From assembly GCF_900182635.1 (NCBI RefSeq), contig NZ_FXTD01000007.1, forward strand, positions 1 to 64,000: DNA of 64,000 bases, written 5' to 3'. Shown here in pieces: positions 53,373 to 64,000 of this stretch (position 1 is its first letter; every line of letters starts with the position of its first letter). The stretch comes from Halorubrum cibi (GTDB lineage Archaea > Halobacteriota > Halobacteria > Halobacteriales > Haloferacaceae). The notes under the pieces are model-generated. The model was given only the letters and a program-made list of their open reading frames with translations. It was not told the origin of the DNA and made no database searches. Both the position numbers and the translations under genes were made by a program.

Positions 53373-56300
53373 TCAGGGTTCCACGGAGACGTACTCGGGC
53401 GCGGTGAGTGCGGCGCTCGACTCGTTCGTCTCGTTTCCTCCGTCGGAGCCGCCGTCCCCGGAGCCGCCCGACTCGTCACCGACCGGGCATTCGGGATCGC
53501 CGGAGGGACAGTCGACGATCTCCTCCTCGAGTTCGACGGTCGTGGCGGCGTCGTTCTCGCCGATCACCTGTCCCTCGGTGACCTCGACCTGTCCGACGTT
53601 CCGGGTCGTGTAGAGGTCCTCGTCCGTCGTCGTCCCCGTCGTGACCTCGTAAGGGCCGGTCGCCCGCACGCTCGTGTTCGTGTACCCCTCCTCGGGACCG
53701 AACTCGTCGTAGCCGGTCGTCGAGTACGGAACGGTGAACTCGAATTCACCGTTCGAGTCCGCGGTCGCGTACTGCGTGTACTCGAAGGTCGCGCCCGAGG
53801 GCTTCTCCATCTCCACCGTCGCCCGGACTTCCTCGCCCGGCTCCGCGCCGCTCCCCTCGATCGTCGCGCCGGGGACGCGCTCGAACGTCTTCACCCAGTC
53901 GTCCTGATATGCGGCGAGCACCGATTCGCCGAGGACGTCCTGGAAGCTCACGCCGAGCTGCTGGAGCACCCCGACCTGTCCCGCGGAGGCGGAGCGTCCC
54001 TGCGATTCGGTGGCGTGAACGAGCCGGTGGTGCTCGAGCGCCTCGACGCGCTCCGAGGGAAGCCCGCCGATCCCGCCGACCTGGGCGCTTCCGTCCTCCT
54101 CGACGTACTCACGGGCCGCGGAGACGTTCTCGAACTGGCGGACCATCGTCCTCGGGTCCTCCGGAAGCACGGCGAGTTCGACCTGCTCGCCGCTCGCGGT
54201 TTCCGCCGCCTGCGTGTCCCAGTCGACGACGACCGGTTCGGGCTCCACCGCGCTCCCGTGGTGTTCGTACAGCCGGATCATCTGGCTCTCGTGGTACCGC
54301 TGGGTGTTCACTTGCATCACCGTGCCGAACCCACCCTGCTGGGTCTGCTGGTAGAGGACGCGGTTGAAGTCCCGCCGCGTCACGTTGCCCGCGTCGTAGA
54401 ACGTCACCGGCGCGCCGAACTTCGAGTTCGGCGAGGCCATCTGCCGGTCGACCATCACGTACCGGGTGTGTTCACCCTCCGTGCTCTGGCTCGCGAGCAC
54501 CTCCCGTCCGGCCTCCTCGCTCGGCGCGAGCAGGTAGTTCGCGGCCTCGACGGCGTTCTGCTGGAACGGGTTCGCGTTCGGGATCCGTTCCGCACGGGTG
54601 GTGATCCAGTGGCCGTAGTCCCACCACGACTGGACGCCGTAGGCGCCCTCCGGGTACTCGAAGTCGCCGTCGGCGGGACGCTCGTAGGTGCCGTAGTACT
54701 CCATTGGGTTGTCGGCGCCCTCGAGCTCGCCCGGGTGCGGCGTCTCGTCGTTCATCCACTGGAGGCTCTCGTCCCACTCGACCACGCTGCCCGGACCGGT
54801 CGAGTTACCCGCGGTCCACACCGGCGTGGCGACCCCCACGAGCGGCACGAGGAGGACGGCGAGCACCGCGAGTGCGGTCAGGACCTGCCACCCCTCGATC
54901 TCGCGAAGCGCATCGAGCGAGGAGAGGTCGATCGCGTCGAACGTGACTTGAAGGAAGTACGCCGCGCCGACCGCGACGACCACCGCGAGGTAGTAGTTGA
55001 AGCGGGCCTGGGTGAATGCGGCGCTCCCGATGAACGCGGCCCACACGACGAAGTACAGCTCCTCCGCGTCGTACTCGACGAGGAACGTCGCGCCGACGAG
55101 GAACGCCGCGGCGATGACGAGCCCGACCACCTGCCAGCTCACGCCGACGACCCCGCCGAGCGCGTCGTACAGCTGGGGCACCGCGTAGACGGAGCCGACG
55201 ACCGCGAGCGCGGCCGGGATGTAGAGCGTGTGGTTCGGGTCGTCGGAGCGGTACAGCGGACGCGCGACGACGTAGAGGACCGCCGCGAGCGCGAGGAAGA
55301 AGGCGAGGCCGTACTGACCGAGGACGAAGTCGGCGAAGGAGGCGTTCTGGAGCGGCGGCTGCCCCTCGCCGATGGTGCGGAACGTGGCTCGGGCGCTGAA
55401 GCCGACGAAGTTCAGGAGGTTACGCGAGAGCGTCGACCACAGCGACGGGAGCGCGAGCCACAGGAAGCCGGCAGAGGCGACGATCAGGCCGCCGACTGCT
55501 GGCGGGTAGGTGTCGGGAGTCAGATCGTCGCGCGCCTCCCACTGGCGGGCGAGCCACGCGAGGAAGATCGCTCCCACGGCGACGCCAAGGGGGAGAATCA
55601 CCTGGAGGAGCGAGTAGTCCGTTACTGCGAACGAGAACGTGTCAAGAGGAACGAGCTGCATCAGCCCGGTGACGCCCATCGCGACCGCGCCGGCGAAGGC
55701 GATCGGCTCCGGACTCCTTCCGTGGTAGGTGTCGCTCGTGATCTTGATGGCGAGGTAGACGCCGGTAAAGCCGACCATCAGAATGCCGGGCTGCCACGTC
55801 CAGATGTAGAGGCCGAGTGCCACGCCCGCGGCCGCGGCGTACGCGGCGGGTCGGCGGAGGGCGTCCCAGTCGCGGTCGACGAGGAGTTCCCAGACCGGTG
55901 CCTCGCGCTCCGCGACCGCGAAGGCGACGAGGAACGCGAGGACGGCGACCGACTGGAAGAACACCTCGGCCGCGCTGTGGTCTGGGAAGCCGACCAGCGA
56001 GTAGCTGAAGAACGTGCCCGGGAGGAGCGCGAGCACGCCGGACGCCACGAGGGCGGCCGGTCGGTCGACGAACCGGCGCGCGATGAAGAACGTCGGCACC
56101 GCGACGAGCGCCCCCGCGATGGGGGCCATGACCAGCATGACTTCCTCGGTGCCGCCCATGATCGGACCGGCGATCCAGATGCTGACCGCCATGATGTGGT
56201 CCCATAGAGTACCGAACTGGCCGGCTTGGACGCCGAACGGGAATCCCGTCCACGGGTCGAACTCGAGGGTACTCGGCCAGTTCTCGAGGAGATAACTCGT

Positions 56301-56495
56301 CTCGCGGAGGTGGTACCACGGGTCGTTCCCGCGGAAGTAGACCTCGCCGTCACGGACGAAGTTCCCGTACGATCGGAGTCGAGTCCACAACATAAACGCG
56401 AAAACGCCCGCGATGACTGGGACGTGGTACCAGCGTTCGAGGAGGTCGAGCGGGGACTTCTCGTCCTCCTCGGCGGTATCCGTTCGTTCGCTCAT
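53373..56495 (-). CDS. aglB: Archaeal oligosaccharyltransferase AglB
   Basis: The 1040-residue STT3/AglB protein transfers lipid-linked glycans to Asn in Asn-X-Ser/Thr on the outer membrane face. It has about 13 N-terminal membrane helices with GNDPWYHLRE in the first external loop, the catalytic-site motif WWDYG at residues 624-628, and a large C-terminal soluble domain ending in a Ser/Gly/Asp-rich tail. It is the first gene of an operon with the DUF368 protein and is divergent from an AglG-like glycosyltransferase. Confidence 0.96.
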   Translation of the reverse strand: MSERTDTAEEDEKSPLDLLERWYHVPVIAGVFAFMLWTRLRSYGNFVRDGEVYFRGNDPWYHLRETSYLLENWPSTLEFDPWTGFPFGVQAGQFGTLWDHIMAVSIWIAGPIMGGTEEVMLVMAPIAGALVAVPTFFIARRFVDRPAALVASGVLALLPGTFFSYSLVGFPDHSAAEVFFQSVAVLAFLVAFAVAEREAPVWELLVDRDWDALRRPAAYAAAAGVALGLYIWTWQPGILMVGFTGVYLAIKITSDTYHGRSPEPIAFAGAVAMGVTGLMQLVPLDTFSFAVTDYSLLQVILPLGVAVGAIFLAWLARQWEARDDLTPDTYPPAVGGLIVASAGFLWLALPSLWSTLSRNLLNFVGFSARATFRTIGEGQPPLQNASFADFVLGQYGLAFFLALAAVLYVVARPLYRSDDPNHTLYIPAALAVVGSVYAVPQLYDALGGVVGVSWQVVGLVIAAAFLVGATFLVEYDAEELYFVVWAAFIGSAAFTQARFNYYLAVVVAVGAAYFLQVTFDAIDLSSLDALREIEGWQVLTALAVLAVLLVPLVGVATPVWTAGNSTGPGSVVEWDESLQWMNDETPHPGELEGADNPMEYYGTYERPADGDFEYPEGAYGVQSWWDYGHWITTRAERIPNANPFQQNAVEAANYLLAPSEEAGREVLASQSTEGEHTRYVMVDRQMASPNSKFGAPVTFYDAGNVTRRDFNRVLYQQTQQGGFGTVMQVNTQRYHESQMIRLYEHHGSAVEPEPVVVDWDTQAAETASGEQVELAVLPEDPRTMVRQFENVSAAREYVEEDGSAQVGGIGGLPSERVEALEHHRLVHATESQGRSASAGQVGVLQQLGVSFQDVLGESVLAAYQDDWVKTFERVPGATIEGSGAEPGEEVRATVEMEKPSGATFEYTQYATADSNGEFEFTVPYSTTGYDEFGPEEGYTNTSVRATGPYEVTTGTTTDEDLYTTRNVGQVEVTEGQVIGENDAATTVELEEEIVDCPSGDPECPVGDESGGSGDGGSDGGNETNESSAALTAPEYVSVEP

Positions 56496-60066: not shown

Positions 60067-60573
60067 CGTTCACAACAGAGATGACCTCCCGTAAATAAGC
60101 AGCAGATCTCGATGTGCGGCTGACACGGTCTCTTCTGACTACTAAAAGGTAATTACGCTTCCAACTCCGCGTTCAACACATCTGAACGACGGTCGAAGCT
60201 CGTTGTAGATCACACGGGCCCATCCGATTGAATTCCGTAATTTATCCGGACATGTAGTGTGACGGCATCACACACGGAAATTCCAACACGTCTGGCTCTT
60301 CGATCGAGGGGCTTCTTGAAACGTTTCCCGTAATCCACCTCGGTACCATTCCATGTCCGCGTCTTCAGTCCCGAAATACGGCGGACTTGAGGGAGAAACA
60401 CTCATGGCATCCGTCTAACTACTACTACACATGATGACTGCCGATGGGTTGTTTCCGATCACCATCGCCCTCGACGATCCCAAAGGCGAACGACGATGGA
60501 CGGTCGGGCGAGAACGCTCTTCGCGTGGATCTCGGATCGTTCAAATCGAAGACGAGGGAATCCTCGCTTCACG
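60067..60573. other. 507-bp lower-GC intergenic region
   Basis: Separates the glycosylation genes from the beta-propeller receptor gene. A 63-residue open frame at 60210-60401 (minus) ends RRVGISVCDAVTLHVRINYG and may be a fragment of something once coding, but I cannot identify it. No RNA gene seen. Confidence 0.5.
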
Positions 60574-63147
60574 ATGAATCGGGACCGCTTCCGCCGGCGA
60601 ACCCTCCTCCGGGGCGTAGCTGGGACGCTCTCGGCCGCCGGAGTCACTCTCACCGGCATCGGCGGATCGACGTCGACCGCCTCGGCGACGAATCACGTAC
60701 CGGACCGGATCGTCTGTGTCGGCTCCGACGACGGGTCGATATACGCGATCGACGCCGCGACCGGAGACTCCGTCTGGCGGTTCACGGAGCCCGGAGACGC
60801 GGTCTCCTCCTCGCCGACCGTCGTCGACGGTGTGGCCTACGTGGGATCCGCTGACGGGTCGCTGTACGCGGTCGACGCGGCCGACGGATCGGCCGTGTGG
60901 TCCTTCGAGGTTGATGACGGTGAGAACGGGGGAATCGTCTCCTCACCGACCGTGATCAACGACCGGGTGTTCGTCGGCGCCAGCTCCGGCGCGGTCGTCG
61001 CGATCGATCGGAGCGAGGGAACGGAGGCGTGGCGCGTCTCCTCGCCGGCCGTCGTCTCCTCGCCGGCGGTCGACGGAGAGACGCTCTACGTTGGCACGGA
61101 GACGGGAGAGATCCTCGCGCTCGCAACCTCCGACGGGACGGAGCGGTGGCGGATCTCGGCTCCGGAGGACGGGATCTCCTCGTCGCCGGCGGTCGTCGAC
61201 GGGACGCTCTACGTCGGCTCGTTCGACAACCGGCTGTACGCGGTCGACGTCGAGGCCGGCGAGACGACCTGGAGTACGGACCTCGAAAACGTCGTGTTCT
61301 CCTCGCCGACGGTCGTCGATGGGACCGTCTACATCGGCAGCGTCGGCGTCGGCGTCGGCCTCCACGCGATCGAGGCCGCGACGGGCGACACGCGGTGGAC
61401 GACCGACGAAGTCGCCGGCGTGGTCTCCTCACCGACGGTCGTCGACGGAACCGTCTACGTCGGCTCCGTCGACGGATCGCTGTACGCGCACGACGCCGAG
61501 AGCGGCGAGCAGGCGTGGTCACGGAACACCGGCGATCAGATCAACTCCTCGCCGACGGTCCGGGAGAAGACGGTCTTCGTCGGGAACGCCGCCGGCGCAG
61601 TGTACGGGTTCGGAGTCGACGACGGCGAACGGCAGTGGCTCTTCGACGAGCCCGGAGACGCGGTCTTCTCCTCGCCGACCGTCGTCGACCTCGCCGGCGA
61701 CGGCCACGGCGTCGGATCGCGGACCTCGCTCGGGACGCTCGGACACCACCACGCGGCGGCGGGCGTCGAGTTCGAAGGAGATAGCGACTCCTCGGGCGGA
61801 TCGGCCGACTCGACCGACTCAACGGATTCGTCCGGGTCGACGGGATCGGACGACTCCACGAGCACCGACGGGTCAACGGACGGAAGCGGAGACGGTGGTT
61901 CCGGACAGACCCCACCGCCGTCGACGGACGGTTCTGGCTCGTCGGGGCTGACCGGCCACGTTCCCACGGTCGGACTCCTCGGCGCGGCCGGCGGGATCAC
62001 GGTCGGTGCGCTCGCAGCGTATCGATTCCTCGGGGGGAGTTCGGACGGGACGGCTTCGGGATCGGATCCGGGATCCCAGTCGAGACGATCGTCGGCAACC
62101 GATTCGGCGAACTCGGCAGGTGCCACGGACACCGTCGAACCGGAGGATCGAACTCCCGAAAGCGACAGGACGGAGGGCGCAGACACCGATGCCGAACCGG
62201 CGTCGTCCGCGTCAACGGGTTCCTCCTCGACCGCGTCCGCGAGCGGTTCGACCGAGTCGAAAGCCGACACGGAATCCGGCGAGGACGTCGAGTCCGGAGG
62301 CCGGGACGGAGCCGAGGACGTGAGCGAATCCGTGGGTGGCGTCGATACCGACGGTGCGGACGGGAGCGCGTTGCTCGCGGGGGTGAACGAACTCTCGTCG
62401 ATCGAACCGATCGGGTCGGTCGGGCCGCTCGCCGCGTACGCCGTCACCGACGAACGGATCGACGGCGGCGACGGACGGGTTCTGGCGCTTCCGGACGCCG
62501 CGGGGGAGGAGGACCTCGCGGGTCGGTTCAGTTCCGTCGCCACCGACTGGGGCAGCGTCAGCCACTACGACGGGATCGCCACGGTGTACGGGTTGGGAAC
62601 CGAGCCGTACCCGTGGGTGCTCACCGACCCGATCGAGGACGCCCCAACGCTCGGCGAGCACCTCGACGACCCGCCGACCGACCCCGCGGCCCGGCTGTCG
62701 CCGGTCGTCGACGCCGCCGAGGCGATGTCGCAGGCCAGCCGGTACACGGTCAGACACTACTACCTCTCGCCGGAGACGGTCCGCGTCGTCGGATCGGGTG
62801 CGGAGCCGACCGGGATCGTCGACGACTGGGGGATCGGTTCGGTGCCGGACACGCCCGAACACGGCACGCGTGCGGCCTCGCCGTACACCGCGCCCGAACA
62901 GCTCCCCGACTCCGAGGAGCCGCTCTGGCGGGGGAAACCCGACACGTACGCGCTCGGCGCGCTCGCGTACCACGCCGCGACGGGGAGCCCGCCCGCGGAC
63001 CACCGTCCCACGAAGCCGAGCGAACACGCCGGCGTCCCGTCGTCGATCGACCGCCCGATAACTCGCGCCATCGACCCGGACCCCGACGAGCGGTACGACT
63101 CGATCGGCGAGTTCGCGCGAGTCCTCAGGCTGGCGGTCTTCGACTGA
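60574..63147 (+). CDS. Tat-exported beta-propeller / membrane / pseudokinase receptor
   Basis: The 857-residue protein reads in order: Tat signal (RFRRRTLLRG, residues 5-14, AxA at ~36-38); PQQ-type beta-propeller repeats (about eight, each SSPTVVDGTVYVGSxDG, residues ~45-375); a Ser/Asp/Gly linker; one membrane helix (residues ~463-487, VPTVGLLGAAGGITVGALAA); a second long Ser/Glu linker (to ~595); and a protein-kinase fold (606-855). In the last, DWG (751-753) replaces DFG, APE (773-775) is kept, HRD is HYY (728-730), and the VAIK lysine is missing (RVLALP). Not expected to phosphorylate. The ATG at 60574 was chosen because the Tat signal follows directly; a start at 60496 would hide it. 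Alternative: an intracellular scaffold anchored outside-in. Confidence 0.86.
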   Translation: MNRDRFRRRTLLRGVAGTLSAAGVTLTGIGGSTSTASATNHVPDRIVCVGSDDGSIYAIDAATGDSVWRFTEPGDAVSSSPTVVDGVAYVGSADGSLYAVDAADGSAVWSFEVDDGENGGIVSSPTVINDRVFVGASSGAVVAIDRSEGTEAWRVSSPAVVSSPAVDGETLYVGTETGEILALATSDGTERWRISAPEDGISSSPAVVDGTLYVGSFDNRLYAVDVEAGETTWSTDLENVVFSSPTVVDGTVYIGSVGVGVGLHAIEAATGDTRWTTDEVAGVVSSPTVVDGTVYVGSVDGSLYAHDAESGEQAWSRNTGDQINSSPTVREKTVFVGNAAGAVYGFGVDDGERQWLFDEPGDAVFSSPTVVDLAGDGHGVGSRTSLGTLGHHHAAAGVEFEGDSDSSGGSADSTDSTDSSGSTGSDDSTSTDGSTDGSGDGGSGQTPPPSTDGSGSSGLTGHVPTVGLLGAAGGITVGALAAYRFLGGSSDGTASGSDPGSQSRRSSATDSANSAGATDTVEPEDRTPESDRTEGADTDAEPASSASTGSSSTASASGSTESKADTESGEDVESGGRDGAEDVSESVGGVDTDGADGSALLAGVNELSSIEPIGSVGPLAAYAVTDERIDGGDGRVLALPDAAGEEDLAGRFSSVATDWGSVSHYDGIATVYGLGTEPYPWVLTDPIEDAPTLGEHLDDPPTDPAARLSPVVDAAEAMSQASRYTVRHYYLSPETVRVVGSGAEPTGIVDDWGIGSVPDTPEHGTRAASPYTAPEQLPDSEEPLWRGKPDTYALGALAYHAATGSPPADHRPTKPSEHAGVPSSIDRPITRAIDPDPDERYDSIGEFARVLRLAVFD

Positions 63148-63260: not shown

Positions 63261-63938
63261 ATGCCATCACGTCGTCGATTTCTGGTTGCGGGGGCCACGG
63301 CGGGGACGATCGCCCTCAGCGGGTGTACCGATGCTGTCGAGATCGCGACCCAAGAAGAGATCGAGCGGTCCGCGGAGCCAGCCGAGCCGGCCGAATCGAG
63401 CGTCGAGGAGACCGGCTTCGAGGAGGTTCGAAACGAGACGATCGTCGTCGAGGAGGAGTTCGAGGAGTTCGGCCAGCGTCGCGAGTTCACCGCGCGCACC
63501 GAGGTCCGTGCGTATCTCCGGGAGATACGATCCGACCTGACCGGCCAGGAGCAGTCGGTGTTCGCCGTCGTGAGCACGCCCGGCGTCTCCGCGGCCGGCC
63601 AACAGCTCAGCCCGCTCGCGAACATGGACGAGGAGGAGCTGATCGACGAGGCGCGCGACGAGATCAGCGCCGAGTACGAGGGCGAGATCCGCGACCCCGA
63701 ACTCGACGAGACGATCGAACAGGAGGTGTTCGGCGAGACCACCGAGGTGAGCGTCTACGAAGCGACAGTGATCCTCCCCGACGGCACCGAGGAGCGGGGA
63801 TACATCCACCTCACGATCGTCGAGCGCGGCGAGGACGTGGTCCTCGTCGCCGGCGCGTACCCCGCCGAGGTCGAGGGGGAACGCGAGCGGATCGAGCGGC
63901 TGTTCGAGTCGCTGGAGGTCGAAGAGTCGGGAGAGTGA
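63261..63938 (+). CDS. Tat-exported lipoprotein (DUF6517-like)
   Basis: The 225-residue protein has a Tat signal (SRRRFLVAGATAGTIALSGC) with lipobox Cys C22. The mature part is acidic with a beta-rich core (FGQRREFTARTEVRAYLRE, VSVYEATVILPDGTEERGYI, VVLVAGAYPAE), matching from memory a haloarchaeal family of surface lipoproteins without known function. It lies 113 bp after the receptor gene on the same strand but has its own promoter. Confidence 0.85.
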   Translation: MPSRRRFLVAGATAGTIALSGCTDAVEIATQEEIERSAEPAEPAESSVEETGFEEVRNETIVVEEEFEEFGQRREFTARTEVRAYLREIRSDLTGQEQSVFAVVSTPGVSAAGQQLSPLANMDEEELIDEARDEISAEYEGEIRDPELDETIEQEVFGETTEVSVYEATVILPDGTEERGYIHLTIVERGEDVVLVAGAYPAEVEGERERIERLFESLEVEESGE

Positions 63939-63950
63939 GAGGAGTGAGAG

Positions 63951-64000
63951 TTAGAAGTCGATGTTGATGTCCTGCGTCGTGGTTTCTCCCGAATCGACCT
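63951..64000 (-). CDS. C-terminal end of an unidentified leftward gene (cut by window edge)
   Basis: The minus strand reads ...VDSGETTTQDINIDF followed by TAA (63953-63951). The frame runs off the window. The acidic, Thr-rich end fits a haloarchaeal protein, but 15 residues do not identify it. Confidence 0.5.
   Translation of the reverse strand, partial: VDSGETTTQDINIDF

Follow-up and report, generated by a model that had tools for sequence, protein, structure and literature searches.

A predicted Tat-exported propeller pseudokinase beside the FtsZl1 operon of Halorubrum cibi and its probable role as a non-catalytic adaptor

Introduction

What use could a haloarchaeal cell have for a membrane protein with a beta-propeller outside and a kinase fold that lacks key catalytic residues inside? 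This question is raised by a gene for 857 amino acids close to the end of the stretch of Halorubrum cibi DNA analysed here (contig NZ_FXTD01000007.1, positions 1-64,000; hereafter the window, 64,000 nucleotides in length). The window ends within a conserved gene cassette, and an operon encoding the FtsZ-like protein FtsZl1 is situated just past its end. The FtsZl1 system was predicted by Makarova and Koonin in 2010 as a putative membrane-remodelling system, with loci comprising FtsZ-like 1 with a GGGSGSG loop, a membrane P-loop GTPase, membrane proteins and serine/threonine-kinase-like genes (PMC2875224). Its outside propeller, its dead kinase inside and the constant location of its gene beside FtsZl1 make it probable that the protein connects the cell surface to FtsZl1 by non-enzymatic means. 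We favour, with some confidence, a function as receptor or anchor subunit within the haloarchaeal FtsZl1 system for this protein, which we read as a type I membrane pseudokinase. Loci fetched around genes are designated Lnnn, and genomes compared Gnnn; coordinates are compiled in Table 1.

Domain architecture and loss of catalytic residues

The Pfam Pkinase model matches the C-terminal domain below threshold and in the C-lobe only (E 0.0018). Based on a 32-row alignment, AlphaFold models residues 600-857 with a predicted local distance difference test score (pLDDT) of 90.3 and a pTM of 0.90; canonical kinases contained in this alignment aid the model, and the 8 orthologues alone give the same domain with low confidence. 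Foldseek neighbours in the PDB are PknI, PknS, PknF, and PknB (TM about 0.7-0.76), and profile comparison to PknB yields an E of 5e-55. A Hanks-type bilobal kinase fold is thus well supported as a prediction, in agreement with the initial annotation, which had proposed a structure prediction of this region as a check.

With respect to the residues of active Hanks-type kinases, the beta3 Lys, the HRD Asp and the HRD+5 Asn are absent, and solely the DFG Asp is present. The HRD+5 position is occupied by Thr735 (Thr in the orthologues, with one Arg) and the glycine loop is reduced to GSVGPL, while APE and the C-lobe motif DTYALGALAYHAATGSPP are retained. Since these changes are invariant or nearly so across 8 genomes, they are not due to chance; in none of the orthologues is a catalytic Lys or Asp found at a shifted position. 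Among the soluble regions, conservation is highest in the pseudokinase (mean identity 0.80 among orthologues). Its ratio of nonsynonymous to synonymous substitution rates (dN/dS) is 0.28 compared to 0.72 for the cytoplasmic linker, where only the comparison between regions is meaningful because dS comes from simple NG86 counting applied to GC-rich genes. Judged from the sequence, the assignment as a pseudokinase under purifying selection is well supported. The replacement of DFG by DWG, which the initial annotation had counted as degeneration, is to be interpreted differently: canonical haloarchaeal kinases read HLDLKPENVL...ADWGL, and thus DWG is the local norm and not a sign of decay.

The metal-binding Asp751, invariant in 8/8 orthologues, might indicate an atypical enzyme with another nucleotide chemistry as in SelO or SidJ. 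With the Lys replaced by Pro, the HRD Asp and Asn lost and the glycine loop reduced, we regard this as very improbable, also because SelO and SidJ retain the beta3 Lys (PMC12599244, Table 1). The kinase part weakly matches models of PglW, MAD6, and PD-T4-6, which would be in line with a protein belonging to an anti-phage or conflict system of the PglW/BREX, PD-T4-6 or MADS-like type. These matches reflect generic kinase similarity far below the curated cut-offs (39 bits compared to 990 in case of PglW), and no PADLOC match was obtained for FtsZl1, the GTPase, the immunoglobulin-like (Ig-like) membrane protein X3N or the lipoprotein of the cassette. A defence kinase was rejected on model scores, and a role in defence appears highly unlikely.

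Upstream of the assigned start, a further in-frame ATG is located at 60496, but the Tat (twin-arginine translocation) motif RRRTLL follows the Met at 60574, and Arg8-Arg9 is invariant in 8/8 orthologues. The propeller is matched by Pfam PQQ_2 (E 3e-66), and its residues 41-375 reach a pLDDT of 85-94 in the full-length AlphaFold model, which is confident despite the shallow alignment of 8 orthologues. Foldseek relates it to the designed eight-bladed propeller v31Bagel8 (TMt 0.94) and to BamB (about 0.7), which argues for eight blades. A hydropathy peak at residues 464-482, with Arg/Lys on the C-terminal side only, marks the predicted membrane segment, which is 81% identical across orthologues. 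Most of the initial annotation is hence borne out, namely a single-pass, outside-to-inside protein with a Tat signal, about eight propeller repeats, one predicted membrane helix, and a non-catalytic kinase fold lacking the VAIK Lys, with HYY in place of HRD and with APE and the C-lobe motif kept.

Association with FtsZl1

The link of the gene to FtsZl1 is well supported. Beyond the window end, an FtsZl1 with tubulin signature loop and a membrane P-loop GTPase are encoded, and a kinase-like gene lies beside them, as in the FtsZl1 system. A vWA-domain protein is encoded in the majority of FtsZl1 operons, though not in all (PMC2875224); none of the cassette proteins scanned with Pfam matched vWA. 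In every orthologue genome with a long enough contig, the gene order is propeller-pseudokinase, lipoprotein, second pseudokinase (in some genomes only), X3N, GTPase, and FtsZl1. The second pseudokinase, a kinase-fold protein with a membrane helix and CarboxypepD repeats, is encoded by the last gene of the FtsZl1 operon, the remainder of which occupies contig positions 66171-72738 on the minus strand. X3N, also encoded in this operon, consists of a cytoplasmic domain, a membrane helix and CarboxypepD repeats.

In a genus sample of 53 genomes, 13 positive and 40 negative for FtsZl1, proteins of the type encoded in the window occur in 8/13 FtsZl1-positive and 0/40 FtsZl1-negative genomes (Fisher 1.5e-6, not corrected for the tree). 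A third pseudokinase of the genome, with a solute-binding ectodomain and encoded at a distant locus, shows a similar pattern (9/13 and 0/40, respectively). As its gene is unlinked to FtsZl1, physical linkage does not explain this pattern; shared descent could contribute. None of the 11 kinase clusters adjacent to FtsZl1 is canonical, compared to 24 of the 39 clusters found elsewhere (clustering at 60%). The Fisher test for adjacency versus catalytic loss gives p 2.7e-4 at 60% clusters and 0.057 at 45%, values that are downgraded given the tree. In the order Lys-Asp-Asn-Asp, the domains near FtsZl1 carry PYTD, RRxD, SSTD, RATE, LNHD, YGTD, AAVD, RSVD, RASD, RACD, and LDNE.

All FtsZl1-linked domains fall into one pseudokinase group of the maximum-likelihood tree (97/87, 15-row group), which also holds the Halorubrum solute-binding pseudokinases located elsewhere in the genome. 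Independent pairs on the tree were uninformative and the pattern corresponds to about one shared origin. Due to this single group, catalytic loss and the link to FtsZl1 represent one old shared history and not many independent cases.

Other kinases and pseudokinases of haloarchaea

Except for the three pseudokinases, the genome of H. cibi (99.5% complete) contains only weak Pkinase matches, by inspection to RIO/Bud32-type and ABC1/UbiB-type sequences, and no protein of this genome exceeds the Pfam Pkinase cut-off. A phosphorylation relay is thus unlikely. In a rival reading, the pseudokinase would regulate, or be phosphorylated by, a canonical kinase, similar to MviN and PknB. Haloarchaea do possess canonical kinases of this superfamily, also beside pseudokinases (G208 cluster, L145/L146), but given the lack of such a kinase in the genome itself we consider an active partner improbable. 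As a membrane-linked pseudokinase, MviN (ActPs3) is regulated through phosphorylation by PknB, recruits partners and in turn controls envelope synthesis (PMC12599244); it also differs from the H. cibi protein in ectodomain and fusion.

The initial annotation had stated that bacterial PQQ-kinases carry the propeller at the C-terminus. This is correct for the AfsK model and for ActPs1; PQQ-kinases have been described, as have PQQ-pseudokinases, in which the propeller is C-terminal (PMC1262709, PMC12599244). Like the AfsK-type and ActPs1 proteins of Actinobacteria, the H. cibi protein combines a kinase fold and a PQQ_2 propeller in one chain, but there the kinase precedes the propeller, whereas here the propeller is N-terminal and Tat-exported. 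The initial annotation further pointed to no described system of such architecture, but a unique domain order was rejected: haloarchaeal kinases with canonical residues and the same order are encoded in L156, L146, L145, and L151, and propeller-pseudokinases in L173, L170, and L145. The former share DWG and, in several cases, a Tat-like start with the H. cibi protein, but possess the canonical K/D/N/D residues, and FtsZl1 is absent from the stretches read around them.

Further kinase-like groups were encountered. Islands at L145-L151 (G208 C1; G215 C2, a replicon of 223,917 bases) hold canonical as well as degenerate kinases, up to about a dozen in number, in fusion with propellers and other domains; FtsZl1 is absent from the stretches read. 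A separate group of pseudokinases of about 446 amino acids with HGG for HRD (L109 10804-12962, L110, L111, L112) occurs in four genomes of the genus and is accompanied by a conserved protein with seven membrane helices (about 273 amino acids in L109); a CetZ/FtsZ-like gene near the L109 member was dropped from consideration because it is not conserved. Another pseudokinase group with HGALRPGAV for HRDLKPENV, on replicons of Halorussus and relatives (L160-L164), is labelled as HEAT-repeat proteins or protein kinases in plasmid records. In L108 (7267-9457), a kinase-then-propeller gene is apparently split by a frame break, while it is intact in L047.

Exchange of cytoplasmic modules in other genera

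Class-wide, FtsZl1 was found in 45/394 genomes, and up to 20 kb were fetched around some 55 loci. In other genera, FtsZl1 operons contain a propeller protein with a membrane helix and mostly a Tat-like start, the cytoplasmic part of which is a different module, here called CTM. Weak matches of this module were obtained to MIT (6/10 members, best E 2.5e-7), TPR, and HHH_5. The FtsZl1-linked membrane proteins that share such a module of MIT/TPR-like helices and HhH, also encoded at L084 (7709-8629) and L087 (2618-4672), have a propeller, another ectodomain or none. As pseudokinase and MIT/TPR-HhH module interchange on related receptors, a docking role is suggested. The propeller-closing motif GSR..LGTLGHH is common to L085, L086, and some propeller-kinases, so that the propeller subfamily seems to be older than the fusion.

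A kinase-like gene is present at a subset of the other fetched FtsZl1 loci and is non-canonical each time. In case of L173, from another family, two Tat-propeller-pseudokinase genes flank FtsZl1, each with a second propeller preceding the pseudokinase. L170, with three kinase-like genes around an FtsZl1 of 1052 amino acids, resembles the locus of Halorhabdus utahensis, for which three protein kinase (PK) genes and an FtsZl1 of 1051 amino acids were described (PMC2875224). That study calls the genes PKs, whereas in the haloarchaeal loci covered here the domains linked to FtsZl1 are pseudokinases, and several of them reside on propeller or solute-binding receptors. The initial annotation had missed the adjoining FtsZl1 operon, the two further pseudokinases encoded in the genome, and the exchange of cytoplasmic domains.

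Proposed role

We propose that the Tat-exported propeller binds an envelope component or a ligand outside the membrane and that one helix and a flexible linker join it to the pseudokinase. Presumably incapable of phosphate transfer, the latter would act as a docking module, responding to the cell exterior by recruiting the FtsZl1/membrane-GTPase machine to the membrane or holding it there, either directly or via the neighbouring type II pseudokinase and X3N. Docking may in turn control filament or membrane behaviour. Precedents for membrane pseudokinase scaffolds, which by analogy support an adaptor, are given by MviN and by EssB/YukC, a single-pass membrane pseudokinase with degraded cytoplasmic motifs that scaffolds the membrane machine of the type VIIb secretion system (PMC12599244). 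Both EssB/YukC and the H. cibi protein are single-pass membrane pseudokinases; the pseudokinase of EssB/YukC is however N-terminal to the membrane helix, whereas the H. cibi protein is of type I with the kinase fold at the C-terminus behind an exported propeller. Type VII secretion genes were not seen in the cassette.

As an alternative, the protein could be a static envelope scaffold, i.e., a BamB-like surface-layer anchor that merely tethers the FtsZl1 machine in the absence of ligand-gated signalling. The nearest folds of the propeller are BamB and designed propellers and not ligand receptors, long fast-evolving linkers transmit allostery poorly, and in L190 a propeller protein with a membrane helix but no cytoplasmic domain adjoins FtsZl1. 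The ligand-binding ectodomains of sister proteins in the same lineage and system (Peripla_BP_6 in L177; SBP_bac_1 in L039 and L190) point to sensing, and a purely static anchor is in our opinion rather unlikely.

Several observations weigh against the adaptor proposed here. The function of FtsZl1 is itself only predicted, and the association of FtsZl1 with pseudokinases is essentially one evolutionary event, for which the Fisher value is too favourable. Within the Halorubrum group, the gene and the FtsZl1 operon are convergent and not co-transcribed. The membrane segment is not built as a helix in the full-length AlphaFold model with its shallow alignment, and since the most distant orthologue also scores lower, the assignment rests on hydropathy and architecture. 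Furthermore, for several FtsZl1 operons neither a kinase gene nor a propeller gene lies within about 10 kb; the receptor is therefore not obligatory for FtsZl1, and an obligate fusion was rejected.

It is tempting, although doubtful at present, to extend the adaptor to an entire family of single-pass receptor pseudokinases linking the cell outside to a tubulin-superfamily polymer. Such an archaeal outside-in cytoskeletal receptor would combine exchangeable ectodomains (propeller, solute-binding, periplasmic-binding, Ig-like) with exchangeable cytoplasmic adaptors (pseudokinase or MIT/TPR-HhH).

In the literature on haloarchaeal pseudokinases and propeller kinases, searched with most subscription journals outside its reach, no description of this protein was found, and the FtsZl1 literature searched contained no experiment on FtsZl1 since the 2010 prediction. 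What is new is the combination in which an FtsZl1-linked pseudokinase follows a membrane helix and an N-terminal propeller exported by Tat; FtsZl1 systems with PKs, bacterial membrane pseudokinase scaffolds and PQQ-kinases are each on record. The "kinases" of the haloarchaeal FtsZl1 system are thereby recast as receptor pseudokinases, and receptor, anchor and cytoplasmic swap are named as targets for tests in haloarchaea that are genetically tractable. If true, the proposal would explain how the surface of an archaeal cell is coupled to a tubulin-like machine in the absence of phosphorylation, and a pseudokinase field so far almost wholly bacterial and eukaryotic would gain an archaeal branch.

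Features of the cassette and its surroundings

Table 1. Features of the propeller-pseudokinase gene, its cassette and related loci (positions in the window unless a locus or contig is named).
Feature	Position	Strand	Evidence or remark
Tat-propeller-membrane helix-pseudokinase gene	60574..63147	+	open reading frame translation, 857 amino acids; 8 orthologues
Tat-type signal peptide, residues 1-40, FRRRTLL	60574..60693	+	sequence; Arg8-Arg9 invariance
Predicted eight-bladed PQQ/BamB-like beta-propeller, residues 41-385	60694..61728	+	Pfam PQQ_2; AlphaFold; Foldseek
Propeller-closing motif GSRTSLGTLGHHH, residues 381-393	61714..61752	+	common to propeller-CTM proteins of other FtsZl1 operons and some propeller-kinases
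Ser/Asp/Gly-rich extracytoplasmic linker	61753..61959	+	56% mean identity among orthologues
One predicted membrane helix, approximately residues 464-483	61963..62022	+	hydropathy; conservation
Low-complexity cytoplasmic linker, fast evolving	62029..62370	+	32% identity; ~115 residues
Pseudokinase domain, residues 600-857	62371..63144	+	profile, AlphaFold, Foldseek, motifs
Pro640 replacing beta3 (VAIK) Lys	62491..62493	+	alignment; Pro in 8/8 orthologues
His728-Tyr-Tyr (728-730) replacing HRD, catalytic Asp lost	62755..62763	+	alignment; Tyr730 invariant
Asp751-Trp-Gly, DFG equivalent, metal-binding Asp kept	62824..62832	+	Asp751 invariant in 8/8 orthologues
DUF6517 (PF20127) lipoprotein gene, possibly same transcript	63261..63938	+	Pfam E 4e-38; syntenic beside all orthologues
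Second pseudokinase gene, 3' end within window, convergent	63951..64000 (contig 63951-66137)	-	kinase fold, membrane helix, CarboxypepD repeats
Diverged membrane P-loop GTPase with several membrane helices	L038 8106-9548		GPQGSGKS and TKCD in sequence; conserved at other FtsZl1 loci
FtsZl1 protein	L038 9556-12738		GLGGGSGSG tubulin signature loop; Tubulin_2 E 9e-10
Third pseudokinase of the genome	G000 contig C2:280045-282561 (L039 5042-7564)		N-terminal pseudokinase (HLA for HRD), membrane helix, extracellular SBP_bac_1
Propeller-membrane helix-CTM proteins	L085 16324-18609, L086 15587-17911, L089, L090, L171, L184		FtsZl1-linked

Past the propeller gene, the outer flank varies between loci; at the opposite end, iron-ADH (alcohol dehydrogenase) and MATE genes are common to most such loci. 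Near the conserved cassette, but outside of it, a large membrane protein with a WWDYGHW motif is encoded beside glycosyltransferase-like genes (window 53373-56495, minus strand); we take it to be an AglB-type oligosaccharyltransferase.
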